Shown piece after piece: positions 6,030-62,612 of a stretch of 64,000 nt of DNA. A model generated the notes under the pieces. It was not told the DNA's origin. It did not search any database and saw only the letters and a program-made list of their open reading frames with translations. Origin of the DNA: Linanthus parryae (Eukaryota; Streptophyta; Magnoliopsida; Ericales; Polemoniaceae); the NCBI GenBank assembly GCA_023055425.1, contig JALGPY010000010.1, forward strand, positions 17,953,363-18,017,362, read 5' to 3'. The translations under genes and the position numbers were made by a program. Every line of letters begins with the position of its first letter. Position 1 is the first letter of the stretch.

Positions 6030-7423
6030 CTATAGGGTTTTGATGCAGGTAACAAAATGGAATAACTATAAAACTCTTGATCAAAGCCCTCCACGGATTG
6101 CATGCAAGCATTCATAACGTGATGAAAGTAAACGAATTGTGTAACTTGTTTGTCTGAGTGATCACTACGCAGAATGATGTCCACGTCTCTAAGAGTATCC
6201 ACACCTAGGATTTCAAGCTGGAATACTTCTCACGTCTTGTGCTAGCTACGCAAAGAGGCAGATAGAAAGAGATCACGCAAATCGAAGCACCGAGGGGGGG
6301 CACACTATGGTCGACTGGTATGGGGCGGATGGGTAGGGCTTCGGCTCTAGCTTTATGTCTCTCCTTTCTTTGTTATTTCACACAATAATTACTCTTGTTG
6401 TTATGAAATAATAAGCTAGGAGTCCCTTTATATAGTTAATAACTCCTTATTAACTATATATTTGCCCCAATACTAATCCTGTCCATACAGGGATTAATCC
6501 ACCTTGCAAATTAGTCCTACTAACTTTGTTTGTGGTTGCGCTTTGATCCTTTTAATTAATTAGTCCAATTAATTAATATCCAAATACAGTTTAATCCATA
6601 GGGTGTGTGACCACATAGATTTCTACTTAGTTGGTAGTAACAATTACAAACATGGAGTGGTGTCTAGCAACACATCTATGCCACCCAACTAATAGAAATA
6701 ATCAGTGATCTGACAAACCATGTACCCAATGTTACTATGTTGTATATATCCATTTGTCTCCATATCCGGATCGGACACGAGACAAAACTGCCACACTCGT
6801 ATATCCAATCAATAGTTTCTCGATCCTGGGAATTGGCTTATCTATACATATAACATAAATATCCCATATTGATTTATCTGAGTCTGGTCAGACAGTCCAT
6901 AAGCACTACCCCTTGAGTGGACATGGATATTAACTCCCATTTGTGGGAGGGACAAATCCTCTCTACATCACTACCATCTCTCAGCTAGCTTCCTATTGTG
7001 CCCGATTACTATCTTTATAGTTACCCAGTTACGGTGTAACGTTTGATAATATCAAAACATGATATTTCACAACTAGAGTATCTAGTGAATTCAAGTCTAA
7101 GGATTACAACACCATTAGCACTACGAGAAGCGCTTGTGACTTTGTCATAATCTAATGTAGCCTTCTCGTTGTGGGTCAATCCAGTATGCCATTACTCCTA
7201 ATGCATACCCATGTGTTAGACTTGATATCTGCATATCATTCTACCCACATACTAGTCAATAGTGATCGTCATATTAATCAATGTAATGGAATAGGGATAT
7301 TTATGATAAACATGCAACACATTGCAATCTAACGAGTTCATTATATTAAATATCTCCATAAATAATAAATGAATATTCTAGCCAAAACAATGTTCATACT
7401 AAATATAGATTGCCTCTAGGGCA
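6030..7423 (-). mobile_element. 5' LTR of the copia element
   Basis: The right end on the + strand reads TTGCCTCTAGGGCA, so the LTR starts TGCCCTAGAGGCAAT in element orientation, a start I recognise from plant copia LTRs. The left end abuts the primer site near 6030, but the exact last base is uncertain by about 15 bp. Length is about 1.4 kb. No coding sequence is seen inside. Confidence 0.6.
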
Positions 7424-8400
7424 TCTACTCCAAGACCATAGGCACACCTTCAACATCATCTCCCTCTGCCACTTCATTATCTCCCACTCCCTCGAAGTTG
7501 TTACTGGGTTCGAACTTGCGATTCCCACTTACGTCAACCTTAAGCTTTGTTGTCTTCTCAAACAATTGAGTCCACCTAGGGTGAAGTGGCTAATCAGAGT
7601 GAGTCGTCCTGTACTCCATGAAGCTTATCTAGTACGACTGATGATCTTCATCCTCCATTGGGACGAGTGTAGGATAGACAATCTTTATCTCATTCCAGTA
7701 TTGAACTCCTTTTTACAATCCGGCGTTGCAGTTTCGCCATGTCCAATTAGCCAACCGCGGCAATTTCCTTTCCTTATCTTCCTCTTTCTTTCCCAAAAGC
7801 TCAGTGATATGCGATATGGCCTTGCAAATCCATGTAAGAAAGATGTGCGGGAACCAAGTCCTGATGTACTTTTCTTGTCGCCGCTCAACTATATTTTCTT
7901 GTTCGATTCCTCCAGAGCCTTTTCAACTACAGGTATTGCGATGTTATTATCAAGCTTCTGATAGGGGATATACTTAGAACCCAATTCAGTGCATGCTCTT
8001 TCTCTAGTACCCCATCAAAACTCAAGCTCGAAACCAAACTGAATTCCGGCATTCCAAACTGTACATGCATATTGTTAATGTAGAGCCACACCTCATGCTC
8101 TTTCTTCCCCTCGTTCATTTTGCATGCATGAAAAGATTCACAAGCTGTCCGAAAAAGTTAAAATAGCCACAAAGGATTTCCAACATAAACTTCAGCTGCT
8201 GGAGCTTACTCTCAATCAATTTAAGATCGTCGCGGAGATATTTCAAATTGTCCCTTGTATCCTTTCAAACCTACCCTCGTTGTGATGTTTCCTTTCTTGA
8301 TTTTCCCCGGCACAACGGAAGCGGTACATCTCTAAAAACCTGAGCGAAGTCCGAAACTTTAATTAACTGCATCTGCTATTAAATTAAAAAATCTCATTAG
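7424..8400 (-). pseudogene. Decayed transposon gene, possible DUF1985 remnant
   Basis: Minus-strand frames here are short and broken. The peptide VQFGMPEFSLVSSLSF (about 8045-7995) resembles the core of DUF1985, a plant domain often found in Mutator-like elements that carry Ulp1-type protease genes. Nothing else in the stretch could be assigned. The match is by eye only, so this is tentative. Confidence 0.3.
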
Positions 8401-8419
8401 TAATCAAGTTCTAATAATG

Positions 8420-8835
8420 TCAAGTGTTACTGAAATAATCTAAGTATTTTAAAATGTATGTTATTGTTTAATCGTCCAAGTCCATAATAGTTAATGACAT
8501 TTGATGAATTTTTCCAAGTGCTGAGAAATTTTCCAGGTATTTGGCTCAATTTTAAAGTGTTGAAGTATTTGCCTGAATTTTTAAGTGTTCAATACTTTTC
8601 ATTCACATTTGGTTGAATTTCTTTGAGAGGAAATTGTAAGTGTTCAAGTGTTGTCGAATTTCTATGTGTTCAAGTGTTACTGAAAATTCTAAGTGTTCAA
8701 CTTTCAGTGTTCATTCACATTTTGCTAAATTTCATTCACATTTTTTTGGAGAAGAATTTCAGACACATTTTTTAGTGTTGTTGAAGTATTTTTATAAGTC
8801 TAAGTGTTCAAGTGTTACTGAAAGTTTTTGATTGT
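8420..8835. repeat. Degenerate tandem repeats around AAGTGTTCAAGTGTTACTGA
   Basis: Variants of AAGTGTTCAAGTGTTACTGA recur near 8424, 8640, 8670 and 8796, mixed with TTCATTCACATTT motifs. The array is AT-rich and has no coding content. It may be part of the same decayed element as the DUF1985-like relic. Confidence 0.45.
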
Positions 8836-20165: not shown

Positions 20166-20526
20166 GTCTATTTACAATGCATGCCCCTTTGCTAGCTTCA
20201 ATTGGTTCTCATGGAAGACATTGTCGATTTTGACCTCTGGTGGAAGCTGCAACTTGTAGGCACGACCTCTGGTGGAAGCTGCAACTTGTAGGCCACCTTG
20301 CCAATTCTCGCAAGCACATGATAAGGTCCGTCAAAATGTGCACAAAGCTTCAAGTTCCTTATAAAGTTCACTGAAGTTTCCATAAGTCGTCCGCCTGGAA
20401 CTCTCTCTTGAGCCTTAGCTAGGTTGTCTTTGAGAAGAATACTAGCCTGCTCCTGTCTTCGAGGAAGATGTCCACATCCTCTACATTGCTCTTGTTAAGT
20501 GGGTGGAATGGCAAGTGTTTTTGTTT
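20166..20526 (-). pseudogene. Integrase C-terminal piece of the minus-strand chromovirus
   Basis: The minus-strand frame reads LKLCAHFDGPYHVLARIG and then KVAYKLQLPPE, typical of the gypsy integrase C-terminus. A 32-bp tandem duplication (ACCTCTGGTGGAAGCTGCAA occurs twice, near 20233 and 20265) disrupts the frame. The sequence resumes beyond the composite element at 29221. Confidence 0.75.
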
Positions 20527-20531
20527 ATAGC

Positions 20532-20895
20532 TGTTACAACCCTGCTACTGTAACCCTAGGATTGAATCCAACTTAAGCAACTCAGAATATTACCAACAAT
20601 CCAGTGCAGTAACCAAACAAGTTCCAGAGAATCAAACAAGAATAGGTAGCTGCTGATAAAGAATAAAGAGAGAGACAAGAAGCTGCGTACCGAGGCGCCC
20701 CTCCTTAACCCTACGTTCAGAAGATTTTTCCTCCCACGTTCTTCTCTTCCTCTCCTTTTATAACATAACAAACTGACTCTAAAATATTAAATAACCAATG
20801 CACTTTGGTCCCTGCTCTGCATAAATTAATTATTACCACTCTGGCCCTTCTTCTTGCGCCTTGAAAACACTTTAACCCCTTGTAGGTCTTTATCA
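20532..20895 (-). mobile_element. 3' LTR of the composite element
   Basis: The LTR is 364 bp, TGTTACAACCC to CTTTATCA on the + strand. It differs from the 5' LTR (28853-29215) only by one G at the CTCTGGCCC/CTCTGCCC site. The polypurine tract lies at 20896-20910 on the minus strand (AGGGGAGGGTAC). The pol stop codon lies inside this LTR. Confidence 0.9.
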
Positions 20896-21200
20896 GTACC
20901 CTCCCCTAAAAGAGCCACCTTGTCCACAAGGTGAAAATCAGGAAAAGTGGCAGCTATAACGTCCCATGACTCCCAGGTGTTCTCATGAGCAGGAAGGGAT
21001 CTCCACTTGATCAAAACCTCAATAGAGCCATTAAGAAGTTTGCGTTGTTGAAGTACAGCTTCAGGCTCCACTCGCAATACCAAATCAGCATCAAGATTCA
21101 AAGGTAAATCAGGAGACTCTAAGACAGTTGGAGGAGCAAGTTTCAGTTGTGAAACATGAAAAACCGGATGTACAGTAGAGGAGGGAGGCAGGTCCTCCAA
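20826..21200 (-). pseudogene. Chromodomain end of gypsy pol (minus copy)
   Basis: The frame holds the integrase tail [15 protein letters not shown] and a chromodomain-like module (EVLIKWRSLPAHENTWESWD, with the usual aromatic and acidic residues). Chromodomains of this type guide chromovirus integration to heterochromatin by binding modified histone H3. The frame runs on into the LTR (KVFSRRKKKGQSGNN, then stop). The upstream integrase and RNase H are missing, because the sequence folds back at 21136-21192. Confidence 0.8.
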
Positions 21201-21797
21201 CTGTCTTAGAGTCTCCTGATTTACCTTTGAATCTTGATGCTGATTTGGTATTGCGAGTGGAGCCTGAAGCTGTACTTCAACAACGCAAACTTCTTAATGG
21301 CTCTATTGAGGTTTTGATCAAGTGGAGATCCCTTCCTGCTCATGAGAACACCTGGGAGTCATGGGACGTTATAGCTGCCACTTTTCCTGATTTTCACCTT
21401 GTGGACAAGGTGGCTCTTTTAGGGGAGGGTATTGATAAAGACCTACAAGGGGTTAAAGTGTTTTCAAGGCGCAAGAAGAAGGGCCAGAGTGGTAATAATT
21501 AATTTATGCAGAGCAGGGACCAAAGTGCATTGGTTATTTAATATTTTAGAGTCAGTTTGTTATGTTATAAAAGGAGAGGAAGAGAAGAACGTGGGAGGAA
21601 AAAATCTTCTGAACGTAGGGTTAAGGAGGGGCGCCTCGGTACGCAGCTTCTTGTCTCTCTCTTTATTCTTTATCAGCAGCTACCTATTCTTGTTTGATTC
21701 TCTGGAACTTGTTTGGTTACTGCACTGGATTGTTGGTAATATTCTGAGTTGCTTAAGTTGGATTCAATCCTAGGGTTACAGTAGCAGGGTTGTAACA
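21193..21797 (+). repeat. Inverted copy of the chromodomain-LTR end (about 605-bp palindrome arm)
   Basis: This arm is the reverse complement of 20532-21135, with a 57-bp loop at 21136-21192. It repeats the chromodomain frame (21227-21502) and then a complete LTR in + orientation (21433-21797). I noticed only one base indel (a five- versus six-base T/A run) and one substitution between the arms. The right end abuts the truncated reverse transcriptase of the next segment. Confidence 0.9.
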
Positions 21798-24190
21798 AAC
21801 GAACACTTCTTGCGATTAACAACCAGTTTATTCTCGCGCAACAATTTGAATGTAGCTCGAAGATGTTGCAAGTGGGACGTTGTGTCAGGACTATAAATCA
21901 AGATATCGTCAAAGAATACCAAAAGAAACTTACGCAAATGGGCACGAAAAATGTCGTTCATCAGGGACTGAAATGTTGAAGGAGCATTAGTAAGACCAAA
22001 CGGCATTACGACAAATTCATAGTGACCGTCATGGGTCCGAAAAGCCGTTTTTGCAATGTCATCATGTTTCATCCTGATCTGGTGATAACCTGACTTCAAA
22101 TCAAGTTTAGTGAAAACTTTAGCTCCCCCTAGCTCATCGAGAAGCTCTTCCACAGCAGGAATCGGGAATTTGTCACGAACAGTAAGCTTGTTAAGTGCTC
22201 TATAGTCGACACAAAATCGCCAACCGCCGTCTTTCTTTCGCACGAGGAGTACGGGGCTCGAGAATGGGCTAACACTGGGCTGAACAATTCCGGCATCCAA
22301 CATCTCTTTGACGATCTTTTCAATTTCGTTCTTTTGGTAATATGGATATCGATATGGTCTGATATTTGGGGGTTTTGCTCCAGGAATGAGAGGTATCGCA
22401 TGGTCGTGGCTACAAGCAGGGGGTAACTCAGTAGGTTCACGAAATAGGTCCGCGAACTCCTCTAAAATCTGCTGCATTGCCTCAGAATGTTGGGAGGGGG
22501 ACACTTTGTCTTGGCAAGTGATAGAATTGACCTCAAGCATGAGAGCATAGCCGTGCTTGGGCATCGAGCGCACGAGTGATTTTAGACCAACCTCCCTTTT
22601 GGTGTAAGCAGGATCCCCAGTCAGTTTCACCATGTGACCATCCTTTTCAAATGTCATATTCAGGGTCTTCCAATTAAAACACACATCCCCCAGAGTTTGG
22701 AGCCAAGCAACTCCCAGAATTATCTCCGGGTTGTCAAGGGAAAAAGGATAGAAGTCTTGGGAGATTTGCAGGCCTTGTAAATCGAGTTTTACTTCGCGGC
22801 ATATCTCGGCGCCACCTATGGATCGTCCATCCCCTACCTTGACTCGAAACTGCTTCGTGTTTGACCTGGGTAACTGGAGATCACGGGCTAGCGAAGCAGA
22901 TATGAAGTTGTGTGACGCCCCACCATCAATCAACACAGATACTTCCCTAGAGCCCAATAAGCCCTTAAGCTGTATCGTGCGATACTCCGGAACGCCAGCA
23001 ATAGAGTGAAGTGACAGAGTCATGGTCTGGTTCTCCACAACAGTTACCTCGGATGAGTCCAACTGCTCGTCGGATTCCCGCTCGTCGTCTTCCGTATCGC
23101 ATAAAATCAAAACATTGAGTTGTTTCGATTTGCACCGGTGTCCTGGCTTGAAAGGCTCATCGCATCTAAAACACAACCCTTTGGCCCGATAATCGCGCGC
23201 CTCTGCTTCGGTGAGTCGTCGATAAGATTCTTTCCTTGTGGCTGTTTCATTAGGTTTTGTAGTCGGTGACGTTTGGTCATTGCCAGCGACTGAACTCTTA
23301 CTTGTCGTGGATGCCGTAATGGGTTGCGCAGATGATGAATTCTGTTGAGCTTGAGATAGGGAATAACGAAGAGGTTCCGCAACATTACTTTGCTGGGACT
23401 GGTTGGACCCCTTGGTTAGCGCAGCAGTCTTCAGATTCCCCGATCGAGCCCTCGTCAAAGAAAAATTTCTTTCTTCAACTCTATGGGCCAGCTCCATTAG
23501 ATCTAAAAGAGAAGAGGGTTGAGCCAGATGAACCTCAGCTCTAGTTTCCTCCCTAAGACCATGTAAATAAGCCCCTTTCAAAAATTCTTCTGATGCTTCC
23601 CGGAGTGGTGCTGACAAGAATTCAAACCTTTCTCGGTAGTCGGCCATCGAGCTTGTTTGTTTATGCTCCATTAAAAGCTCGTACTGGTTGCAAGCCAACG
23701 AAGATTGAAATCTGCGAGTAAGGGTTTCCTTGAACTCTTTCCATCCAGTAATTGGAGCCCTCACCTCTAACCACTGGTAAAAGTTCAGGGCACTACCAGT
23801 GAGGCATACGACTGCTGAAGTAAGTTTTTCAGTCTCTTGAATGATGCCGTTAATGAGGAAGTAGTGCTCGATTCTGAAAAACCACCCATGAGGGTCCTTC
23901 CCATCAAAAAGTGGCATCTCCATCTTCCTGCGTAACTCAGTTCCCTCTGCTCCGTTCAGTGTAGCTCTTCTACGATCAACTTGCCCTGTCATTGACACCA
24001 TGCCTGGGGTGGTGTTTTCTGACTGCTTCCCTTGCTCATCTTTTCCTTGAGCCAGTATCAGATTCTTCAGTTCGTTGATGCTATCCTTCACGTTTTGCAT
24101 CTCGGTTGCCATCCCGTTGATGTTGTTCTGTACTGTTCCCATCCCGCGCTCCAACTCTGTGATACGATCTTCCATTCTAGTGTTTACCAT
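21798..24190 (-). pseudogene. Gypsy gag-protease-reverse transcriptase, truncated in RT
   Basis: One uninterrupted frame of about 797 codons starts MVNTRMEDRITELERG. Gag (about residues 1-330) includes a retrotrans-gag core (MPLFDGKDPHGWFFRIEHY). The zinc knuckle is CFRCDEPFKPGHRC (about 338-351). The aspartic protease motif is VLIDGGASHNFIS (about 422-434). Reverse transcriptase follows: WRFCVDYRALNKLT, then VFFDDILIYS with the catalytic DD pair. It ends abruptly after KKCSF at 21798, so the RT connection, RNase H and integrase are lost. Gag and RT lack stops, so the copy is young. A 26-bp leader and primer-site complement (GGCTCTGATACC) lie at 24191-24216. Confidence 0.9.
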
Positions 24191-24216
24191 GTCAGGTTCG
24201 CCGGCTCTGATACCTT

Positions 24217-24369
24217 TGTTACAACCCTGCTACTGTAACCCTAGGATTGAATCCAACTTAAGCAACTCAGAATATTACCAACAATCCAGTGCAGTAACCA
24301 AACAAGTTCCAGAGAATCAAACAAGAATAGGTAGCTGCTGATAAAGAATAAAGAGAGAGACAAGAAGCT
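24217..24369 (-). mobile_element. Partial LTR of the composite element, cut by the virus-like insert
   Basis: The LTR starts TGTTACAACCC next to a primer-site complement, as at the true 5' end, but stops after GACAAGAAGCT, about 153 bp in. The virus-like sequence begins at 24370. The junction shares at most a base or two between the two sources. Confidence 0.88.
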
Positions 24370-25975
24370 GAACCCCTCAAAAATAGAGATATCCCTCACC
24401 CTAGTAATGTCCTCCTCCGTTACTTCTCGAAGCCAATGCATACTAGGAGTCCTTTTTATCAGGTCAACAGCAAAACTCTTCCCATCCATGTAATTCACAA
24501 GGGACATAGGGTCCGAATTGTACTGCCTTAACATAGCCGACATCGCATTGGCTGCACCCTTGGTAGTGTTAGCCGCACATATGTCCACATCCTTCAGCAA
24601 TGTTAAACAAGCCATTTGATGAACCCTGCCGAATGCTCTAGCGCTGGCAATATTGGCCATTGGCCTGGCAGTTGTGTTACTCTGCAGCTTAACCAAACAA
24701 GGGTATATCAAGTCGCACTTGCTATTAACAACGGGCAGCCCTATCTTAGTGAAATACCTGTTCTCCCTTATGCTAGCAGCTATAATAACCGCCTCTTCCA
24801 GAACACGACTGCAATTACAGTAGTCAGCATATATAACCATTGAACCCCAAAATATCTGAGCAGATATCCCAATCAAGTTCGGTGTATCAGAAGTCCCCTT
24901 ACTGACCAAAAATATTGTTTCAGCATCAGCAGGTATCGAGATACCTTCCATTTGATGGAACTTCGGATTCGGGTACTCCTCACACATTGAGTAGATACAC
25001 GCATTGTAGGCATGAGCTTGAGAATTGTTAGACCAAACATAACCAGTATTCTCAAAGCCCCAGGCCGACACCAGAGAGGCTACATTATATGGAAGCTTCC
25101 TTGGGTTGAATCCTCTGTATTCTATATCACCATGCTCAAGCAGATCGAAGTAAGTCAGCACTCCTTTGACAAACCTAGTTTTCTTGTTCTGAGCACCACC
25201 AACAGAGTCGATGGTCTGCAGAATCATCTCAGTCTGAGTACTGTCTTGTGACTTCAGGTCATTCGCCGGTAACCCAGTACACTTTGCAAACTTCCCAGAA
25301 TCTGAAACCGATCCTGAGGTCAACATAGCAACTAAGTCGTCGTGTAGTGCAACATGGTCCTGCACTCCATTATACAAGTTCACACTTATATTCCTGTACA
25401 CCCAGTTTATCCTGAATATGTAAGAATTCATCCCAGCCAGCTCGTCCCAAGGTATATCTTTATCAGTTGTGAAATTCGCCCCCTCAGTCATCATCACACC
25501 ACGGATGGTCCCCTCATCTTCCTCAGAAACCTCTGCTCTATCAGCAATCTTATAAGCAGCTTCCGCCTTTCTAGACTTGGCGGTCTCTATCAGCCTCCTG
25601 ATGTCGTCCCGGTACTGTGGAGGAAACTCATCGGGCTTAATATTCTCCATACCATCAAAATATGATATGGTATCCAGCCAAGTCTTGTACATCTTCCTGT
25701 CATGTATCAATTCACGGGTCAACACACCCTTCGCCTGTGCAAATGTGAAACAGCTCAGCAACCTAGCCCAATCGCTTGCCAATTTATCCTTCTTAACCTG
25801 AGAGCTCATCACAGTCTCCCAACTGACGAACAGACATGCTCTGAAACTCAGCGGCGGCTCATCAGGTCTCATGGCTGGCGTAACTCCACTCGTCCCAAGA
25901 CTAACCTTTCTCTTACTTGGACTCGTAAACCTCAGCCCTTTCTTGGCACCTCTTCCACCACCAGTACTACTCAAA
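24370..25975 (-). repeat. Arm 1 of the virus-like inverted repeat
   Basis: The 1606-bp segment is the reverse complement of 26940-28545. Predicted peptides are identical in every frame I compared, so nucleotide identity is close to 100 percent. On the minus strand it encodes the C-terminal 535 or so residues of the virus-like protein without the N-terminal part. It has no start of its own in the same frame, apart from antisense sequence of the spacer. The frame runs on into the LTR. Confidence 0.93.
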
Positions 25976-28653
25976 GGTGTCTGAAGAGTGGTACTTGCAG
26001 TCCAATAGCCATAAGGCGTGAGGGTATTGGATTTGATGCTCTGGCAACTTTGCGGGATGAGGTTCGCAAAGGTGGACGCGTTGAGAAGTTGGACATACCT
26101 GAAGGTGGTTTCAATGTTAGATTTTCGTGTTTGAGGGGCGCGAAGAGTAAGGTGAAGCCGATAAGTTTTGAGGGCTGTGAGGTACACGATGATTTGACCC
26201 CGGGCGTGGGTAGGGTGCCGTGTGACAACACGCCCGATGAAGACTTAGGTGATCCAGGGTGGGAAATCGCTTCTGGGTCTGAGAGCAGTGGGGAGGAAGA
26301 AGACTATCTGGAGGTTATTGAACAACCGCCTAGCACGACGTCTGGTTCCCGGGGTTCTGCTGCTATTAACCGGGGTAAAGCTGGCCCTCCTAAGGGACCA
26401 ACTAGCACCATGAACCCGATATTTGAAGAAAGGGTGGTTAAGACGCCGTTGGAGTACTCTGACAGGGTGAACCCAGGCAGCAGACTTCTCGCTCTGACTT
26501 ATCCAACCACAGAGTTGGCTGGTAAGTCAAAGAGTACCAAGAGTAGCTCATCAGTGGTATCTCAGCCCGATACTGACAGGGAGTTAATGCCGAGGCTACC
26601 TGCTGGGGGTCCTGGTGTTATTATTGAGCAGATGACTTCTGAGGGTAGTGGTGATGTGGGCTCGAGGGGTAGTGAAGTTAGTTCGGGGCTAAGGGAACCG
26701 CATCCTTCTGTGGAGTCGGATCAAAATGTTGAAACCTCTCCGGATGTGATTGAGTACGTCATTCCTGGTGAACAGATGGTGGATGCTGGGACCCAGGTGT
26801 TGGAACCAATAGCTGAGGTTGAGAGCAGTGCTGAAGTAGGCCCTGACCGACTTGATTCACCACCTTCAATGCCGCCGTCTGTGCCTTCTCCGCAGAGGAA
26901 GACTCCCGATAGGCAGGCGGTCGAGGAAGTGAGAAACATTTTGAGTAGTACTGGTGGTGGAAGAGGTGCCAAGAAAGGGCTGAGGTTTACGAGTCCAAGT
27001 AAGAGAAAGGTTAGTCTTGGGACGAGTGGAGTTACGCCAGCCATGAGACCTGATGAGCCGCCGCTGAGTTTCAGAGCATGTCTGTTCGTCAGTTGGGAGA
27101 CTGTGATGAGCTCTCAGGTTAAGAAGGATAAATTGGCAAGCGATTGGGCTAGGTTGCTGAGCTGTTTCACATTTGCACAGGCGAAGGGTGTGTTGACCCG
27201 TGAATTGATACATGACAGGAAGATGTACAAGACTTGGCTGGATACCATATCATATTTTGATGGTATGGAGAATATTAAGCCCGATGAGTTTCCTCCACAG
27301 TACCGGGACGACATCAGGAGGCTGATAGAGACCGCCAAGTCTAGAAAGGCGGAAGCTGCTTATAAGATTGCTGATAGAGCAGAGGTTTCTGAGGAAGATG
27401 AGGGGACCATCCGTGGTGTGATGATGACTGAGGGGGCGAATTTCACAACTGATAAAGATATACCTTGGGACGAGCTGGCTGGGATGAATTCTTACATATT
27501 CAGGATAAACTGGGTGTACAGGAATATAAGTGTGAACTTGTATAATGGAGTGCAGGACCATGTTGCACTACACGACGACTTAGTTGCTATGTTGACCTCA
27601 GGATCGGTTTCAGATTCTGGGAAGTTTGCAAAGTGTACTGGGTTACCGGCGAATGACCTGAAGTCACAAGACAGTACTCAGACTGAGATGATTCTGCAGA
27701 CCATCGACTCTGTTGGTGGTGCTCAGAACAAGAAAACTAGGTTTGTCAAAGGAGTGCTGACTTACTTCGATCTGCTTGAGCATGGTGATATAGAATACAG
27801 AGGATTCAACCCAAGGAAGCTTCCATATAATGTAGCCTCTCTGGTGTCGGCCTGGGGCTTTGAGAATACTGGTTATGTTTGGTCTAACAATTCTCAAGCT
27901 CATGCCTACAATGCGTGTATCTACTCAATGTGTGAGGAGTACCCGAATCCGAAGTTCCATCAAATGGAAGGTATCTCGATACCTGCTGATGCTGAAACAA
28001 TATTTTTGGTCAGTAAGGGGACTTCTGATACACCGAACTTGATTGGGATATCTGCTCAGATATTTTGGGGTTCAATGGTTATATATGCTGACTACTGTAA
28101 TTGCAGTCGTGTTCTGGAAGAGGCGGTTATTATAGCTGCTAGCATAAGGGAGAACAGGTATTTCACTAAGATAGGGCTGCCCGTTGTTAATAGCAAGTGC
28201 GACTTGATATACCCTTGTTTGGTTAAGCTGCAGAGTAACACAACTGCCAGGCCAATGGCCAATATTGCCAGCGCTAGAGCATTCGGCAGGGTTCATCAAA
28301 TGGCTTGTTTAACATTGCTGAAGGATGTGGACATATGTGCGGCTAACACTACCAAGGGTGCAGCCAATGCGATGTCGGCTATGTTAAGGCAGTACAATTC
28401 GGACCCTATGTCCCTTGTGAATTACATGGATGGGAAGAGTTTTGCTGTTGACCTGATAAAAAGGACTCCTAGTATGCATTGGCTTCGAGAAGTAACGGAG
28501 GAGGACATTACTAGGGTGAGGGATATCTCTATTTTTGAGGGGTTCTGGCTTATAGATCACCCCGTTCTTTTAGGGGAGGGTATTGATAAAGACCTACAAG
28601 GGGTTAAAGTGTTTTCAAGGCGCAAGAAGAAGGGCCAGAGTGGTAATAATTAA
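25976..28653 (+). pseudogene. Captured virus-like gene, structural-protein-like, family unassigned
   Basis: From 25976 to about 28566 a single + strand frame of about 860 codons is open, fused downstream to the gypsy chromodomain tail and stopping at 28653. The N-terminal 320 residues (spacer) are acidic and rich in Ser, Pro and Gly, probably disordered. The C-terminal 535 residues look like a globular, mainly helical domain rich in Cys and aromatic residues (for example GYVWSNNSQAHAYNACIYSM). I do not recognise a cellular or transposon family. Size, layout and lack of introns suggest the coat or nucleoprotein gene of an RNA virus. The start is missing: the frame is open at the left junction. 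A captured plant transcript is the alternative. Upstream sequence in this frame (25702-25975) is antisense of arm 1 and not real coding. Confidence 0.6.
26940..28545 (+). repeat. Arm 2 of the virus-like inverted repeat
   Basis: This arm pairs with 24370-25975 across a 964-bp spacer (25976-26939). Transcription through both would give a hairpin of about 1.6 kb of double-stranded RNA. Because the spacer continues the arm's reading frame upstream, arm 2 plus spacer is the original collinear cDNA and arm 1 is the inverted extra copy. Confidence 0.93.
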
Positions 28654-28852
28654 TTTATGCAGAGCAGGGACCAAAGTGCATTGGTTATTTAATATTTTAG
28701 AGTCAGTTTGTTGATGCTATCCTTCACGTTTTGCATCTCGGTTGCCATCCCGTTGATGTTGTTCTGTACTGTTCCCATCCCGCGCTCCAACTCTGTGATA
28801 CGATCTTCCATTCTAGTGTTTACCATGTCAGGTTCGCCGGCTCTGATACCTT
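28567..28852 (-). mobile_element. Partial LTR (+) joined to gag start and primer site (-)
   Basis: 28567-28583 repeats the polypurine tract, and 28584-28711 is the first 128 bp of the LTR in + orientation. At 28711 the sequence switches to a minus-strand copy of the gag start (matching 24080-24190) and a primer-site complement (28839-28850). The LTR reads CAGTTTGTT and the gag region CAGTTCGTT at the switch, an 8 of 9 match that could have guided a template jump. Confidence 0.87.
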
Positions 28853-29215
28853 TGTTACAACCCTGCTACTGTAACCCTAGGATTGAATCCAACTTAAGCA
28901 ACTCAGAATATTACCAACAATCCAGTGCAGTAACCAAACAAGTTCCAGAGAATCAAACAAGAATAGGTAGCTGCTGATAAAGAATAAAGAGAGAGACAAG
29001 AAGCTGCGTACCGAGGCGCCCCTCCTTAACCCTACGTTCAGAAGATTTTTCCTCCCACGTTCTTCTCTTCCTCTCCTTTTATAACATAACAAACTGACTC
29101 TAAAATATTAAATAACCAATGCACTTTGGTCCCTGCTCTGCATAAATTAATTATTACCACTCTGCCCTTCTTCTTGCGCCTTGAAAACACTTTAACCCCT
29201 TGTAGGTCTTTATCA
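28853..29215 (-). mobile_element. 5' LTR of the composite element
   Basis: The LTR is 363 bp, TGTTACAACCC to CTTTATCA, followed by the target duplication ATAGC. It is one base shorter than its partner at 20532-20895 and otherwise identical by eye, so insertion was recent. Confidence 0.92.
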
Positions 29216-29220
29216 ATAGC

Positions 29221-32196
29221 CATACAAGACCTCAAATGGTGTAGTTTGGAGGCTGTTGTGGAATGTTGTGTTGTACCACCATTCTCCCAAGCTCAGCCAT
29301 TTAGACCACTAGAGTAGCCTATCCCTAGTCATATGTCTGAGGTAGATCTAAAAACATTGATTGAACCTCTCTGTTTGGCCATAACTTTGATCATTGTAAG
29401 TTGTGCTGTAGTTCAGCTTGGTATCCACAGCAGTAAAGCGAGTATTACAAAACAGACATAAGAAGATGGGTCTCTTTCAAGGCCACGGAGCTTAAAGACA
29501 TTATTGAAAAATACTTGTGCTGTTGAAATGGCTGTATAAGGGTAACATAGTGGCCCAACTTAGAGAATCTGTCCACAACTACCAAGATGATGGTTTCTCC
29601 ATGAGAATTTGGGAGACCTTCAAAGAAGTCCATGGAGATATGAGATCGGAGCATCTCTGGAAGTTGCAGTGGTTGTAGAAGACCTAGATATGGAAGGTTT
29701 CATCCTTTATGCTTTGGCAAGTATCACAGTTGCTGACCCACTCCTTGATTTTCTTCTTCAAATGCGGTGTTCACTCTTGTATGAGTTTCTAGCTCCCCAG
29801 AATGGCCCCCAATACCTGAATCATGGAACAGTCTTATGGTGTTGCTTCTCAGCTCTCCAGTACTTCCAATATAAATGAGGTCACGCTTCTTAATAACTCC
29901 ATCACTTAAGTACTGTTATTAGTGGCGTCCAAAATGAGATGTGGGTTAGTGCGTGAGCCCAATCATCACTGGAAACTCCTCTTGCATCCATTTTGGGGTT
30001 ATGGACGATATTGCGAAGCATTGCACTACATCATGCAGCTGCCTTCTTCATCTCTGCCATGTCTAGACAGTGCACCCGCAAACAATATAATCCTTGCCTT
30101 TCTTATATAAGATTATACAGTCCAATCCTAATAACTTCCTAATCCATTTTTTTTGCAGCGGAGTGGTAAACTCTTATGATCATGACAGTCATGATGATGA
30201 ATTTGGTACTCCCCAAATAAGGCCTCTATTTTTCAGGACCAAGTTTAGAAGTTCTTTCTCATAGGTGGACATACCTAAGTGTTTAGGTGCCAAACTCTTT
30301 CTCAAATAAGAAAGTGGTATGCCTCTTTGCATCAATACTGCTCTTATACCATTGTGACATGCATCAACTTCTATGGTGAAGGATAGAGTGAAATTGGGTA
30401 ATGCGAGGACATGTGTGGTACTCATTGCAGTCTTCAACTTGAGAAATGCAGCCTGTGCTTCTGACTCCTTTGGAACCCACCAGTTTTCAGCAACTTTGTG
30501 AGTGTCTAGCTGTGTGAACATACCCCCTCACAAACCTCTTATAGTAATTTCTGAGCCCTAAAAGCCCTCTTAGCTCCTTGAGTGTTCTTGGTTCTGGCCA
30601 TTTAGCATTGCTTCCACCCTGGTTGCATATGCTATTATCTGTCTAGAGATTATGTGTCCCAAGAAGTCAATACTGTCTTTATTTAAGGAACACTTGCTCA
30701 TTTTGGCAAAGAGCTTGTGTTGCTGGAATAATTTGAATGCATGCTCTAGATGTTGGAGGTTTTGCTCTGTCGTTTTGCTGTATATAAGAGTATCATAAAA
30801 GATCACCAATATAAATCTTCTCAGATATTGCTAACCCTTGAAAAATGGCTGGTGCATTAGCCAAATCAAAGGGCATTACTGTAAATTCATAGTGTCCCTA
30901 TGAGTCCTGATCAACCATCCTCCTCACATGCTGGTAACTAACCTTGAGATCCAGTATAGAGAAGATGGTTGCTCTTTGTAACTCATCAGAAACTTCTTCA
31001 ATGATTAATATTGAATATTTGTTCTTCATGGTGATTCCATTAAGGCCCCTATAGTCCACACAGAATCTCCAAGACCCATCTATCTTTTTAACCAACAAAC
31101 ATGTGATGAAATGGACTTGAGTTGGGTTGAATGACATCTCCATGCAACATTTCCCTTACCAACCTCTCAATCTCATTGTTTTGTAAATGTGAATGTCTAT
31201 AAGGCCACATACAAACTGGGGAAGAGCGTTCCTTTGATATGTATGTAATGGTCTTGGTGTCTTTTAGGTGATAACGTTTTGCTGCTCCTGAAAATTTCTT
31301 GGCATTGGTTGATGGTGCACTGTCTGGAATTTGTTGTCTTTTTGCAAGTCAGTAAGTGTAGTTGTGCAGTATTCACCCCCTCATGTCCTGGACAGTATTT
31401 CTGCAAACTGTGTAGTTGCATTGGGTTAACTTGACTTGGAGGGGATTGAGCTTGGGTGGTAATGTTTGTACCATAGTGCTGGAAAGTCAGAGTTTTGGGA
31501 TTCAAATCCATAGGAACGGGGCTAACATTTCTGAACCTTTCAGCCTTCAATAGTGATTCACAACCCACAAGAGTGAGAATTCTGAAATAGACAATGAAAG
31601 TGTGACCTTGCCGTTTTTTGTGGAACAACTTGGCATAGGCCCGAACTCTCAATAATGCTTCCATCACCCACCTGCCCTCTTCTTATGGATTTCTACTCTC
31701 AATAATTCAGTTGTTTAGCCACCTTGGTATCTGAAAACGTGTGTGTACTCCCTGTGTCTACCACAATAATCGATCTTTCCTTTGATTACTCCATGCACCC
31801 TCAATGTTTTCGAGGTATTTTGTCCATCCATGGCATGCAGCGAAACTCTGGCATCTCATACATTTAGGCGTAGTTTCATCCATGGCAGCCACCACTCCTG
31901 TGCAGCTCCACTTCTGTGCAGCTGTCATCTGTTTGTTGGTTTGGTACTGTCTCAACCTCTTCTTTTCGTATCGATGACCAGTTTCAAATTTGTCATCACA
32001 ACCCTTTAGACTTCTTATCTTGCATTTCCTCACTAGTGAGTCTTTTGTATGGCATGCCTTCATTGAGTGATAACCCTGAAATTCTGTCGGCTGGTGTGTG
32101 GCATTGGTTTCTTATATGGAGATAATAGTTGTGGGGTTGGATTCCGGCTTACTCCACAATTTGACACTCCACTATAAGGCTGCTAGGACTTCTTGT
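29221..32196 (-). pseudogene. Decayed gag-pol of the minus-strand chromovirus
   Basis: Reading down the minus strand: zinc-knuckle relic CDDKFETGHRYEKKRL (about 31980); protease-like VVDTGSTHTFSDTKV (about 31750); reverse transcriptase FCVDYRGLNGIT (about 31060) and MVIFYDTLIYSKT (about 30809-30771), where the second catalytic Asp is replaced by Thr; RNase H FTIEVDACHNGIRAVLMQ (about 30370); integrase core [12 protein letters not shown] and [12 protein letters not shown] (about 29630-29540). Many frameshifts and stops break it. It continues into 20166-20526, from which the composite element split it. Confidence 0.82.
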
Positions 32197-32204
32197 AATT
32201 TGGC

Positions 32205-34241
32205 CATAGTTATTAAACCCGGACCGACCCGGCCGGTCGACCGGTAACCCGGTGACCCGGAACCGGTCCGGGTCACTACTCAGTTTGTATATGTCACTGA
32301 CCCGGTCAAACCCACCCAAACCCGGTCAAACCCGGCGGGTTTGGTGATCAACCCGGTGACCCGGTCCGGGTTAACTGGGTTGAACCGGTCCGGAGATAAC
32401 ATGTTTTAAGCATTAAAAAACAAATTGAAATGCTCATATAAACATTTTTATTGAACATTTGTGTGATTGCATTCTTAATAAATGTAAAAAAGTGTTAAAC
32501 AACACATAAAATTAAGGGTAAAAGACATTTTGCACCCTCGTTAGATGGATTATATACAAAAAAAACCCTGTTGTTTGGGGATATACAAAAACCACCCCTG
32601 TCAGCTAACGGTGACTAACGGCAACTAACAGAACACGCTAAATACCCATTTTACCCTCAAATGAAAAAAAATGCCCTACGATATAAGTTTTGTTTTTCTC
32701 TACTACTCCTCATTTCTTCTCCACCACTCTCTCTCTTCCTCCTCATCCTCCCCACCTCCAGATCTGAAAACCCTAGCCACCACACCCAAGACCTCAGAAG
32801 TCATAAAACAAAAAAAGAAAGAACAATGGCTAAGAAATTCCATTCAACAATCTCTCTCTCTCTCTCTTAAAACTATAACCAACGCAGCCCTCACAGGCTC
32901 AAGCAAAACCACCGCCGCCACCACAATTCTCCCTCCGGTGAAGACAAATAGAACCGATGGACAGCCAGGAGGTCACCACCGCTATTGTCCGATGAGTGAA
33001 CTCGTCGATGGCGACAACTCCTCCGCCGATGAGTGAACAAACAAAACTCGTGGAAGTCACTGTCCGCCATCGACGAGATCCGGCGACATCTCCTATGCCC
33101 TTCCCCTCTTCACTCTGCGTCATCCACCGTCGACGAGATCCGGCGATTACCAAATCAGGCCAAGACCGCCACCATCACGCCTCTGATCCCCTCCTTCGTC
33201 CTCCTGACCCGATTCCCTCTCTCTGTCCTCTCTCTGTTCTTCTCGACGGAAACCCAGCACCGTGGGTATGTGAACATGGAGCGATTAAGGCTGAAATCGA
33301 CCGTGGGTTTGTGAACATCGACCGATTCCCCCTCTGTCCCCTCCTTCGTCTTCGTGACGCGATTCCCCCTCTCCGATTCGGTGGATTTAACTCCGATCGG
33401 AGCGATTAAGAGCCAAAATTTGGGTTTTTCTTATTTGAGTCTGATTGGAGGAACTTGCCTAAATTTGGGTTTCTAGCAGATTGTAGATAGGCTCCACTTT
33501 TGGGTTTATGATGTATCTGGTATATGTAGCCTATATGCTTGTATTCATCTTAGTAACGTGTAGTAGTTTGTAGTTATGTAGTAGTATCCACCTTGATTGT
33601 TAGGGTTGTTGTTGTTGTAGGCATGAATGGGGTGTTCTTCGTGTTCTTGGTGTCAAACTTCTTAGGATTGATGGTGAGTGGTGTTCTTGTAGACATTTGT
33701 TGTTGTTTTTGTTGATGTTGTGTTGGTATTGGTGTTGGTGGTTGTGGTGGTGTTGGTGGTGGTGGTGGTGGTGGTGCTGGTAGGGTGGTGGTGGTGTTGC
33801 TGTTGCTGGTAGGAGGGTGGTGGTGGTGGTGGTCAAGAACATTAAGAACATTAACAAAATAAACCCAAAAACACAAAGAGGGGCAAAATGGTCATAAAAA
33901 ATTCATATTGCACCCCCTACCTTCTGACACTAATAGAAGGGTGGTATTTGTCCAACGTCCATCCACTCATAGGGCGGTTTATGTATATCCCCCAACAACA
34001 AGGGGTTTTTTGTATATAACCCATCTAAGGAGGGTGTAAAATGTCTTTTACCCTAAAATTAATAACTTGAGCTATTATATGTCAATTTCTAATATATTTT
34101 ACTATAAATATATACTATAATATATTATTAATAATTTATTATTGACCCACCGGTCCGACCAGTGACCCGCCGGTTGGACTGGTGACCCAGTGACCCGGAA
34201 TCTTTGCCGGGTCAACCACCGGTCCGGGTTTAATAACTATG
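32205..34241. mobile_element. Non-autonomous hAT element containing a Mutator-like element
   Basis: The ends CATAGTTATTAAACCCGG are inverted copies of each other. The 8-bp target duplication AATTTGGC is perfect (32197-32204 and 34242-34249). Without the nested element it is about 490 bp. The ends are filled with GACCCGG and ACCGGTC repeats. The right end is repeated in the downstream tandem array. Confidence 0.9.
32516..34053. mobile_element. Mutator-like element, copy 1 (1538 bp)
   Basis: Inverted repeats of about 85 bp start GGGTAAAAGACATTTTGCAC. The 9-bp target duplication TAAAATTAA is perfect (32507-32515 and 34054-34062). The inside has a pyrimidine-rich leader, a GC-rich coding-like block (32880-33410), and a GTT/GGT-rich tract (33600-33830). 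No transposase is present. It may be a Pack-MULE carrying gene fragments, but no parent gene was recognised. Confidence 0.92.
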
Positions 34242-46717: not shown

Positions 46718-48213
46718 GGGTAAAAGACAAAAACCACCCCTTGAGTATGGGGTATATACAAAAACACCCTTCGTGTTCGGGAATATACAAAAACCACCCC
46801 TGTCAGTTAACGGAGACTAACGGCAACTAACGGAGGGGCAAAAAGACATATATACCCTCACCTCCAAGAAAAATTACACTGCTATAAAAAGCATTTTTTC
46901 TCCTCATCCCCCATTTCTAACCCTAACAGCCCTTTTTATCTCTCTACACCCTCTTTCTCTTCACCGACCCAGATCTAACTGTGTCCCTCTCATCTCCAGT
47001 TCTTCCATTTCTTCGCCGTGATTTGCTTCGGCGCCGTGATTTGCACCACCAGCCTCACATACCTTCGTCGTCTTCCCCTTTTGTTCCTCATCGCCGCCGT
47101 CGTCGTCCGCCATCTTCTCTGGTTCAATCGACGGCGACGGCGTCCGCCGTCTTCTCCGGCGTCCGCCGTCTTCTCTGGTTGAATCGACGGCGGAGGAGGA
47201 GAAGAGTGAGTCGATGATATAAAACCCTCGTATTCGTCGTCGTCTTTATCTCAATCGTCGATTCGTCGTTGTCTTCTCTATCTCAATCGTCGATTTGACA
47301 AATTGTTTCTCGGTCTCGATGCTCTGTTTGAGTAATTCTAGGGTTGAAAGCAGGGACTTTGATTTTGTGGAGGAGAAGAGAGAGTCGAACTTCAACCGGG
47401 AACTGATCGAGACAGTAACTGTGGTCTTCACACTTTAGCCCCCTTCATGTTCCTGGTTCGTCGTCGGCCAATTCGTCGGATCAGAAAGCGAATTCGTCAA
47501 TTTCGAATGATAACCCAGACGAGAAAGTTCGTCGATTGTTGAAGAAGGCGGTTTGGGGCTACAAATCTGTTCATGGCCCTTCCTCTGTCCCCCTTCTTCT
47601 TCTTCTATCTCTCTGATTTAGGGTAAGTTTGGGTTTGTGTTCTCACTGATTTCGTCGGCCAAATCGTCGGGCATAGCCTTGGTTACCTGGAGAATTTTTT
47701 TGGAGAATACTGAGATTGAGCTTTGGAGAATTCCTCCTTGTCTGCTTCTTGTTTGAAATTTTTATGAAAATGGTTATTTTTTACTGTGGGAGATTTGATG
47801 AGCACATTTATTGTTGTTGTCGTTGTTGTTCGGCGGTCGTGGTGGTGGCTTTGTATCCAGTTTCTGGTCCATTTTTGTTTGAAAATGGGTACTGTTGTTG
47901 TTGCTGCTATTGTTGATGTTGTTTTTGTTGTTGTTGTTGTTGTGTTGGTGTTGGTGGTCTTGGTTAAGAACACCAAGAACATGCACAAAGTAAACACAAA
48001 GTCACAAACACAAATATGGGTAAAATGGACATAAAAAAGACAGATTGCACCCCCATACTAATTAATTGTAACAGAAGGGTGGTTTTCGTCTAACGTCCAT
48101 CCACTGACAGGAGTGATTTTTGTCTCCACAGGGGTGGTTTTTGTATATCCCCGAACACGAAGGGTGTTTTTGTATATACCCCATACTCGAGGGGTGGTTT
48201 TTGTCTTTTACCC
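46718..48213. mobile_element. Mutator-like element, copy 2 (1496 bp)
   Basis: Long inverted repeats start GGGTAAAAGACAAAAACCAC. The 9-bp target duplication is TATATCATC at 46709-46717 and TATATCATA at 48214-48222, one mismatch. The layout matches copy 1: leader, GC-rich block (46980-47220) and a TTG-rich tract (47810-47945). No transposase. Confidence 0.88.
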
Positions 48214-48425
48214 TATATCATATAACTTCCATGTAATAATTCTAATTACAAGCCAACCTAGGAGAGGTAACAGAAATTTTGTATATTCAGGATTTCTCCT
48301 TTCTACCCCAAGTATAAATGTGTCCCAAGGTTCTAGCTCTTTGAATTATCTGTCACTCATTGGCTTCTTTTTTATGTTGTTTTCTGCGCCTTTGTTGTAG
48401 AAAACTGATCATACGCGGTTAAAGA

Positions 48426-55358: not shown

Positions 55359-56787
55359 ATGGCCAAGACAAAAGCCTCCAAATCTGTGAAAGAACCCGAA
55401 GAAATCCCTGATCTTCCCATGACCATGAGGAAGAAAGCTCCATATCTAGGCGGAGAAGACTTTTATCATGCTAGGGTAAAGTAAAGAATCTACCAGCTCC
55501 TGCCACTGAAGATCTGCTTCTGTTGAGCCCTCTTACTACCCCAGCCAGGTTGGAGTTAATTGACTCCAAGGACGTGGTAAGATTAGGTGTTGAAAATGGG
55601 TTCTTCCCCCATACTGACATTTCTACTCAGGCCTTCGTGCAAAAGATTGATTTAATGGATGAGTGGATTGACCATGTGCTAACTCAGCATGCCATCACGC
55701 TAGACAAGGCTGGGATCTATTTTGCTGTTAGGGCTACGAAGGGTGCTGCCGTGAAGCTGGATCAGACCATGCTTCTAAACCTTTTTTCTCGCTACTCACC
55801 TGCGACTCATACTTTTCACTTTGCTGAATTTGAAGCCGCCCCCACTTTGGAAGATCTTCAAATTCTGTATGAACTTTCACCCATGGGCGAAGTCGATCCC
55901 TTGGCTGCTTTGAAACCTGGTCCAGAGCTCACTCTCTATGCGCAGATGGAGGAGTGTTTGACCGAGGTAAAGAAAATTTCTACCCGTTGGACATCTGCAG
56001 AATTACTTCCCACATGGCAGCTGAGACCTCCGCGAAGAACACTTGGGAAAAATGGGTGCAATACTTCTTTCGCGACTATACGAATGGTAAAATCACCAAA
56101 GAAATATGGAAAATGATCCCGAAGCGAAGAATTATGTAGAGGTAAAGGGGTATCATCTGACCTTATGCGGCTTCCTCTGTGCCTGGCTGTCAAGGTATTT
56201 GATCGACGGTCATCCTCATGACGGGGTCTTTTATCATGCCTGCCCCTTGCTGTTAAGTTGACCCATGGTCAGAAGGTCGCGCTCGGGCCTCTAGTGCTAG
56301 GCACCTTGTATCATCGTTTAGACCAGCAGGTGGTTGAAATTGAGGAGTCACGTGGGCGTCTTGATGTATTGACTTTTGTCAATATTTCATTTCTTACCAT
56401 GTGGGTCTTTGAAAGGTGGCCCTCTTATGCTCCTGTTCCTTCAAAACCTAACATGTGGAACGTTCCAGGTGCGAAGAATGCACTTCCAAGCGGGAGAGCT
56501 GCCCGATGGTATAGGACCAATCCTCCTAAGTGTTCATGGAGTCTGGTGTGCGACGATCAGAGAAAATTTACAGCCTGGCCCTACATTACTCGCATTGACA
56601 ATGTGCGATTTTTCCCAAGGCTGTACCCTGGTAGAGATGGCTCCTATTCTGAAGACACCCTTCTCCGGGTTCATGATCGCTACCGTGAATTCCTCTGCTG
56701 GTGCTTGAGAGGTTCACTACCTGACCTTGCCGAATATGTTTCTGAGATAACTCCCAAGTACGAGCGGATCACACTCAATGTTGACCA
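55359..56787 (+). pseudogene. Plant mobile domain (PMD) pseudogene, truncated
   Basis: Starts MAKTKASKSVKEPEEIPDLP at 55359 and shifts frame near 55480. The long open part (55523-55960) holds LVRLGVENGFF-like and TFHFAEFEAAPTLEDLQILY segments, the hallmark of the plant mobile domain (formerly called aminotransferase-like), found in transposons and in a few domesticated silencing genes. It shifts frame again near 55965 and reads on from 56258 (VFERWPSYAPVPSKP) to 56787. There it is cut by a gypsy LTR. The function of the parent gene is unknown. Frameshifts and truncation make this copy inactive. Confidence 0.75.
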
Positions 56788-59052
56788 TGTAACACCCCCA
56801 AATGGCCCAAGCCGGAGACCCGGGGATGTCACTCCGTAGGGGAGAGGAGCCCAGATACAAGAAGATTTTATAACATGGTTCGCAAGCACAAAACATCCAC
56901 AATGATAATTAAATCCAATTGAAAATATTGCATTATCAAAAAACCAACATCCTAGCCACAAACCGGCACATCAATCTAAAGTGTTTAAATCACTAAATAA
57001 TTCAAATTCAAACTGAAATACTACTACTATTAATCCATGTCATGCGCGTCCCCTTCTACGCCAGATAACCATCTTCTAAACCTGTGGTGCGGAATGAAAA
57101 AGAAACACCACAGTACAAAATCAGCATGAAATACTGGTAAATAAACTTCCAAACATGTAAAACGATGATGGGATAGTTACAAAACAATGACTCATTTATA
57201 AGTAAGAGTTTTTCGCAAACACAGCGGTAATAATGTTGACTCTTGTATTAAGACATGACAGTTCCCAATTCCATAATATTTCCAAATCCATTTCCATAAT
57301 CTTTAGGAAAAATCCAAAATCCATCGTTAACTCCTTTCCGTTAACAAAACCAAAAATCCATTATTAATTCGTTGCGACGGGGGAAACCAAACCATCTCGC
57401 AAGCATCCAAGACCCTAAGTGTCGACAACCCCAAAAGAATCTAGCGTCCAGAGGAGTGAGTACAGGAAGCTATCCGGGAACTTGCAACCGGATTAAATAA
57501 AAAAAATTGAAACGGAAGACCAAGATCAAACCGTCCAATGCCAATGGTAACCATACCACAATAATAATAAATGTCCCCGCACAACTATTCCACTTTACGT
57601 ATTAATGCATTATCATTATCATGGTGATATTTCCAAGAGAAGCATTTAACAAGTAGAAATCACATATTGCATGTCACGTCACATAAACACATTTTGAGAT
57701 GTAAAGAAATACAAGAATTCATTTTGACACGAAAAGAGATAAGCACACTAGGCTTGGCATATTTACTTACCTCAAAGCAAAATCCAACAATAGCAACTCA
57801 ACCGATGTACTCTACGTACTCGTCGTCGACGAACTCGTTACCTACACGTAACAATATTCTAATCAAACAAATATTCTAGCAATATACTTGATATACTAAT
57901 TACAAGCATATGATAGTCAATGGTTTAGGGTTCTAACACCAACCTAACATCTCACACAAATCATACTTCAAAACAAAACCCAAAAATTTGCTTCAAAATC
58001 CTTTAACCTAAAGCATACATAACCTATCATAACTCCACCAAATCTATTACTCCAGTTTCCCAAACAGATCATGATCTAAAAACAGTTCCATTAGATTCAA
58101 AACGTTTGAAATAATAAGTTTCGCCTCAAACGGATCTTTATTTCGATTCCTGAATCAAAAGTTACACTAGTTTCAAGTTTCCAACTTCATTCAAAATATC
58201 AATACGGGAATTGTCAATCTTCATGAAACTTTTCCCCCAAGCATCAAGTTCATCCAATATTCATACTAAACCTAATATAACATGATTCTCACATTCAATC
58301 ATTCAATCAAACTTCTATTCCAAACTAGGGTTTCTTCCCAACACCCAAGAACATGATAAAACCTAAAACTTGATTATCAATCCTACAAATCCATGAACAA
58401 TGATCCTAACAATAACAAACTGAAATTTAAAGATTACATGCAACATACATAAATCATGAACAAGTGGTCACGAGAATAAGAGGTCAACAAGAGAAAAGAG
58501 AAGAAGAAACGAAACAAGCTCAAACCCGCCGCCCATGGAGGCGGACGGAGAGAGAGACGGACGGAGAGAGAGAGAGAGAAAGAAACAGAGAAAGAAAAAG
58601 AGAAAGAAAGAAAAGAGAAAAAGAGAGAGAAGAAATTACATCAACGGAAAAAGAGAGGGACGGCGGCGGCGGGGCTACCGTCTATCACAAGAGAGAGACG
58701 AGAGAGAGAGAGGGACGGGTGAGAGTGAGGGACGTGAGAGAGAGTTAGAGAAAAATAGGGAGAGTGAGGGTTTTATGAGAGTTGGAAATAAAATCAACTT
58801 CATAAGTAAGAAACCCTCTAGAATTAGGAAACTTTTACGTAGGAAGAAAAGTTAGGTCAAAAGACACTTATTGCCAAAAGACAAATACCTCCCCCAAACT
58901 CAAGTAAAAGACACTAAAACCTTTAATTAAAGTCACAAAGTTCCCCCCAAACTCTCAAAGCATTATAATTAACTCTCTACAATTAAATTAACTTCCCAAC
59001 ACTTATTATAATATCACAAAATACTTGTAGTCACAAAAACGGGGTATTTCAT
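56788..59052 (-). mobile_element. 3' LTR of the right-hand gypsy element (2265 bp)
   Basis: TGTAACACCCC marks the left end and GGGGTATTTCA the right end on the + strand. The polypurine tract of the minus-strand element adjoins at 59053-59065 (AAGGAGGGAAGAA in element orientation). A purine-rich GAGAGA/GAAAGA tract at 58540-58750 gives chance ORFs. The LTR lies inside the PMD pseudogene. Confidence 0.85.
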
Positions 59053-62609: not shown

Positions 62610-62612
62610 AAA

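Follow-up and report, generated by a model that had tools for sequence, protein, structure and literature searches.

We analysed a window of 64,000 nucleotides of the Linanthus parryae genome (C2:17953363-18017362), together with the whole assembly to which it belongs (1.51 Gb in 121 contigs). In this window, a Ty3/gypsy chromovirus occupies positions 20532-29215 and encloses a large inverted repeat of viral capsid sequence. The features are given below in coordinate order, with strand and with the analyses on which each one is based.

20527-20531, no strand: target-site duplication, left copy (ATAGC); flank comparison, empty site continuous in 11 of the 11 fetched relatives
20532-20895, minus: 3' LTR, 364 bp, TG..CA; LTR alignment, sibling LTRs
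20532-21135, minus: left arm of the second inverted repeat, 604 bp, with LTR, purine-rich tract and chromodomain end; self-comparison, Chromo domain match
21136-21192, minus: loop of 57 nt, which in the siblings adjoins the left arm without a break; self-comparison, sibling alignment
21193-21797, plus: right arm, with an inverted complete LTR (about 21433-21797), ending at the LTR terminus; sibling alignment, LTR alignment
21798-24190, minus: gag-protease-RT, cut off inside RT, with about 1.85 kb of the siblings missing; Pfam, sibling alignment
24204-24214, minus: GGTATCAGAGC, presumably a primer-binding-site type motif, inner copy; motif search
24217-24370, minus: LTR fragment from nt 210 to the LTR end, abutting viral antisense with a 1-nt overlap (G); joint analysis
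24370-25975, minus: arm 1, viral capsid sequence, viral sense on the minus strand; self-comparison, Pfam match
25976-26939, plus: spacer, same open frame, without detectable relatives; frame analysis, Pfam and PHROGs scans
26940-28545, plus: arm 2, viral capsid sequence (PF21685 region), viral sense on the plus strand; self-comparison, Pfam and capsid-chain matches
28546-28563, plus: viral tail adjoining arm 2 only, aligned to 28557, end approximate; P0002 alignment, joint analysis
28566-28712, plus: reversed fragment with chromodomain end, purine-rich tract and LTR start; sibling alignment
28713-28826, minus: duplicate of the gag start, meeting the LTR fragment at CAGTTyGTT; sibling alignment
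28840-28850, minus: GGTATCAGAGC, the same motif, adjoining the 5' LTR; motif search
28853-29215, minus: 5' LTR, 363 bp, TATA-like box at LTR nt 133; LTR alignment, sequence scan
29216-29220, no strand: target-site duplication, right copy (ATAGC); flank comparison
29221-30521, minus: degenerate host gypsy element with integrase-like and RNaseH remnants, resuming left of 20527; Pfam, flank joining, relatives

The carrier retrotransposon and its insertion site

The LTR pair with TG..CA ends and the perfect 5-bp target-site duplication are those of a Ty3/gypsy LTR retrotransposon, and the two LTRs are only one indel apart. Pfam matches place gag, protease and RT on the minus strand, at 21776-24190, with a chromodomain match at 20826-21200; the window copy thus retains gag, protease, part of the RT and the chromodomain. 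A preliminary description, made from the letters of the window, had placed the repeat inside a retrotransposon, and indeed the LTR element encloses both viral arms. The interval that it proposed (24370-28566) captured the repeat correctly but was too narrow for the affected unit, which is the whole element at 20532-29215. Rfam (at the gathering threshold) and tRNA scans of the window gave no matches.

We also asked in what state the insertion site had been. When the outer flanks are joined with a single ATAGC, the joint is spanned by about 65 integrase-like residues in an open frame (...WWYNTTFHNSLQTTPFEVLYGYKQ...), in a host element that is otherwise full of stops. Moreover, the 11 relatives of the host element that were fetched, from 44 other matches listed, all align uninterrupted over the empty site. 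Considering the target-site duplication, the open joint and these continuous relatives together, 20532-29215 entered as one piece.

A genome search with a piece of the RT (40 matches scored of 393 candidates) revealed, on two other contigs, two near-identical siblings without the viral insert, L025 and L026. Their identity to the window copy is 99.5 and 99.6% over 2417 bp of gag-pro-RT, and each is a simple element of 5.29 kb with LTRs of 364 bp. L026 possesses a single 1535-aa frame with gag, protease, RT, RNaseH, integrase zinc-binding, SH3 and chromodomain in this order, which provides the family with the gag-PR-RT-RH-INT plus chromodomain arrangement; an integrase core model was absent among the 12 Pfam families listed for this frame.

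The viral inverted repeat and its protein

Self-comparison of the window showed that the two viral arms, each 1606 bp long, are 100% complementary and surround a spacer of 964 nt. The coordinates, length and perfect identity of the arms given in the preliminary description, as well as the hairpin layout that it recognized, were exactly reproduced. Its observation that the spacer carries on the reading frame of the arm was also borne out, as spacer, arm 2 and tail (25976-28563) form one frame of 862 codons with 0 stops. For a perfect repeat of 1606 bp, chance is not an issue. The absence of any difference between the arms corresponds to an age of at most about 72,000-133,000 years (95%), a weak bound that is based on assumed mutation rates and holds only without gene conversion or assembly collapse.

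The protein encoded by the arm belongs to a viral capsid family. Residues 602-947 of the 983-aa ORF matched PF21685 (E 6e-46), whose Pfam title is "Fungal virus Capsid protein, N-terminal domain", and a comparison with solved structures returned three capsid sequences with E values from 9.8e-43 to 4e-42, including 3j3i (E 4e-42), which we take to be the capsid of Penicillium chrysogenum virus, a chrysovirus. A region-wise protein search (5134 candidates) added P0002, a protein of 930 aa with both capsid domains and the only relative from outside the PDB, which is 28% identical to the arm protein over 354 residues. The alignment to P0002 continues beyond arm 2 through the residues WLID, up to 28557; therefore, the sense copy extends further than its antisense counterpart on either side. 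PF22144, the C-terminal half of the capsid, found no match in the window ORF, indicating that the N-terminal half alone is present at the locus. A first protein search, with 7991 candidates scored, had returned no relative, probably since its search words had been drawn from the N-terminal extension, and scans of viral contigs with P0001 and with a two-sequence alignment found no relative. AlphaFold run on two sequences gave a mean pLDDT of 34, and this model was left unused.

The 511 aa encoded by the spacer and the start of the arm (25978-27510) had no Pfam match, and the N-terminal extension gave one match in PHROGs, at E 0.19; judging from the shared open frame, and from a genome search that located this protein nowhere else, it may represent a viral N-terminal extension. 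The spacer itself would also be viral, considering that it shares the open frame and was not found elsewhere in the genome.

Within the whole genome, the arm DNA matched its own two arms only (2 of 2 candidates scored), and the arm protein gave 2 matches, both at this locus (4 of 4 candidates scored). We rejected a host gene family as the source of the arms, since the genome matches are the locus itself and the other relatives are viral capsids. The preliminary description had suspected a viral origin, had suggested comparing the arm protein with viral proteins and had named a host gene family match as the result that would overturn its reading; viral capsids were what the comparison returned, and such a host match did not occur. 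With its capsid family on the one hand and its integration into a nuclear contig of 56 Mb, with target-site duplication and empty site, on the other, the sequence is an endogenous chrysovirus-like element. Further viral segments, such as an RdRp, would lend support to this assignment but are not necessary for it. The viral RdRp family PF02123 gave 0 matches in the genome (7 of 7 candidates scored), as it did in 14 control genomes, so that this result does not establish its absence.

Breakpoints and the second inverted repeat

The siblings allowed the window element to be read piece by piece. On the coordinates of L025, it consists, from left to right, of 8581-7920 antisense, 7978-8581 sense, 6069-3499 antisense, the viral antisense copy, the viral sense copy, 8200-8346 sense and 3793-3289 antisense; L025 positions 6070-7919 are missing. 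The junctions between virus and transposable element lie inside one unit bounded by LTRs and target-site duplication. At four of the six internal joints, those with both parents known, the pieces share a microhomology of 1-3 nt: 1 nt against L025 or 3 nt against L026 at 21193, A or AAA at 21797-21799, G at 24370 and GTT, within CAGTTyGTT, at 28712. This count leaves aside the joints at 25975/25976 and about 28563, for which the viral parent sequence is needed. Microhomology-mediated DNA repair would be expected to leave overlaps of this size too, and one of 1 nt is barely above chance.

The carrier contains a second large inverted repeat, which is not viral. Its arms (20532-21135 and 21193-21797, 604 and 605 bp) surround a loop of 57 nt and are one substitution and one indel apart. 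We considered whether the inverted LTR at 21433-21797 could be an ordinary nested insertion and rejected this, as RT sequence lies beyond its terminus and the chromodomain lies on its other side just as it does inside the siblings. The two A's that follow the LTR end at 21797 fit either the 2 bases between LTR and primer site or RT sequence. Because the sense arm stops at the last LTR nucleotide, it points to an origin before integration, considering that a chromosomal template would run into the flank, whereas this is where a linear cDNA stops; autointegration, in which an LTR end is joined to an internal site, also fits this arm end.

Moreover, two variants, at columns 163 and 168, occur in all three complete LTR copies and in none of the four sibling LTRs, which points to a single molecule or family member as the source; these columns lie outside the two partial copies.

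Origin of the locus, its possible function and known systems

Taken together, and pending proof by long reads, the locus is a young single insertion of a chimera between a retrotransposon and a virus. We think it likely that this LTR-retrotransposon chimera arose by faulty reverse transcription that switched onto the RNA of a chrysovirus-like dsRNA virus. The reverse transcriptase would have left the retrotransposon RNA for the viral RNA, copied the N-terminal half of the capsid gene and then made a second copy of opposite sense, for which the simplest route is fold-back synthesis, the 964-nt spacer serving as the loop. Another fold-back, with a loop of 57 nt, would have taken place at the 3' LTR end, and the finished chimera, keeping two good LTR ends, would have been inserted by integrase as one unit, all in one round of reverse transcription.

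The viral identity of the arms, the single insertion, the breakpoints and the variants common to the complete LTR copies are seen directly in the sequences; that the reverse transcriptase made the jumps, and in which order, is what we infer here. Fold-back copying predicts a loop contiguous with one arm, and the 57-nt loop is indeed contiguous with the left arm, while the 964-nt spacer runs on into arm 2 without a break, matching a fold-back in the opposite direction. Fold-backs of opposite direction require either at least two nascent strands or a joining of pieces, which counts against a tidy scheme. For the viral repeat, a switch between the two strands of the dsRNA genome would do as well. 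The RNA 5' end is expected about 30 nt after the TATA-like box, and the joint between LTR and virus, at LTR nt 210, lies away from it, so that it did not arise by a simple run-off at the template end; this, too, fits a tidy scheme poorly.

Short overlaps and alternating inverted pieces are typical of chromosomal rearrangement, and both are found here. It could therefore be asked whether fork stalling with template switching, or end-joining of cDNA scraps, scrambled the insertion and drew in viral cDNA. We regard this as unlikely, because two near-identical LTRs with a perfect target-site duplication enclose the pieces, the mapped pieces belong to the sibling retrotransposon or to the viral frame, with only about 8 nt near 28560 outside both, the inverted arm stops at the LTR terminus and the complete LTR copies have their variants in common.

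Long hairpin RNAs are known to be processed by plant Dicer-like enzymes, and a domesticated antiviral locus, with a hairpin retained for the virus-silencing small RNAs that it yields, would account for a perfect 1606-bp repeat with an open frame and a TATA-like box in the LTR. An LTR-driven transcript, if made, would fold into a viral stem of 1606 bp, and its cutting by Dicer-like enzymes can be predicted from the layout of the repeat. Yet the youth of the insertion, with LTRs one indel apart, explains both the perfect match and the open frame, and the same element contains an inverted repeat that is not viral; we find domestication quite improbable. This reading concerns the upkeep of the locus and is compatible with an origin by reverse transcription. 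Since the second repeat is not viral and calls for no antiviral role, the structure speaks more directly of how it arose, probably through template switching with fold-back during reverse transcription.

Finally, an artefact of assembly or library, either a palindromic read chimera or mis-joined copies, is very improbable despite the difficulty of assembling identical arms, since the flanks of the two arms differ, unlike those of read-through palindromes, the target-site duplication agrees with the empty site and the contig reaches 56 Mb.

Returning to the insertion of a reverse-transcribed chimera, the locus looks like a fresh footprint of the entry of an RNA-virus gene into a plant chromosome. 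A single assembly shows the carrier, its insert-free siblings, the empty site and four of the six internal breakpoints of a young event; the capture mechanism is thus testable in a living plant. In addition, as a natural long viral hairpin, the locus allows small RNAs, and an effect on a dsRNA virus, to be sought. A bolder reading, which we hold with considerable doubt, is that LTR retrotransposons act as accidental vaccinators of plants, template switching and fold-back on viral RNA writing genes of dsRNA viruses into the chromosomes as long, LTR-driven hairpins and so making heritable RNAi triggers in one step. If so, the repeat would need no prior assembly by selection.

Inverted-repeat small-RNA loci and engineered hairpin transgenes have long perfect arms that flank a spacer. 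The Linanthus locus has a long inverted repeat of the same kind, two perfect arms around a spacer, and differs from them in that its predicted hairpin is read as a by-product of its origin. Regarding the capture itself, Geuking and colleagues reportedly obtained in 2009 LCMV-IAP recombinants in mouse cells, in which an RNA virus had fused with an LTR element and had integrated; that case differs in cell culture, virus and element.

Retrotransposon or pararetrovirus reverse transcriptases are suspected of bringing viral RNA into plant DNA, by a route described as unknown in the available text of Chiba 2011 (PMC3136472). Chrysovirus-like sequences are present in plant cDNA, according to the accessible part of Liu 2012 (PMC3407116), and a review that tabulates Chu 2014 reports chrysovirus-derived insertions in three plant species (PMC6908805). 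The latter resemble our case as chrysovirus-derived sequences in plant nuclear genomes and differ in that the review's available text mentions neither a retrotransposon carrier nor a hairpin (PMC6908805). For grapevine, virus-derived insertions, mainly pararetroviral, have been proposed to give resistance, as stated in the accessible text of Bertsch 2009 (PMC2714080).

The closest parallel is eBxnv-1, a nodavirus RdRp in a Bel/Pao LTR retrotransposon of Bursaphelenchus xylophilus (Cotton 2016, PMC5177903). According to the available text of that paper, one earlier natural case was known to its authors, who infer copy-choice in reverse transcription (PMC5177903). As at our locus, a gene of a non-retroviral RNA virus lies between two LTRs, with PBS and PPT; the differences are the nematode host, the degenerate carrier and the absence of the word "inverted" from the text available (PMC5177903). 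In Linanthus, the host is a plant, the carrier is young and has siblings, and the target-site duplication, the empty site and four of the six joints can be read. Among the titles and abstract openings of the open-licence papers listed, we found no plant case of a non-retroviral RNA virus captured by an LTR element as a hairpin, and the phrase "endogenous chrysovirus" occurred 0 times in those listed. Plant genomes with chrysovirus insertions and retrotransposons that captured RNA viruses had each been described before; it is their combination that is new.

Probable recent activity of the carrier family

In the sibling retrotransposon L026, a copy on another contig that lacks the viral insert, gag-pol is encoded by a single unbroken frame of 1535 aa (L026:1705-6309, minus strand) and the LTRs are >99% identical. 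This intact frame and the near identity of the LTRs make recent activity of the family that the carrier belongs to probable.

Other elements in the window

We also noted the following features:
20232-20293, a 30-bp perfect direct duplication with a 2-bp gap, inside the host gypsy element to the left of the insertion
32515-32629, 33972-34054, 46718-46831 and 48128-48214, four copies of a dispersed small repeat (~83-115 bp, 81-89% alike, both orientations present), perhaps MITE-like
55523-56836, a pair of ORFs that each match the plant mobile domain (PF10536) only weakly, with scores below the curated cut-off
59303-63917, a further Ty3/gypsy element, with matches to gag, protease, RNaseH, integrase zinc-binding, SH3 and chromodomain distributed across three ORFs

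The frame preceding the capsid domain

About 500 codons of open frame (25976-27500) precede the recognisable capsid domain, the first part being, as judged by eye, Ser/Pro/Glu-rich in appearance, and this frame had no match in Pfam. Compared with the protein of this frame, the aligned part begins ~390-405 residues closer to the N-terminus in the matched capsid relatives, which are P0002 (a viral protein of 930 aa), 9rvm and the solved capsid sequence 3j3i.
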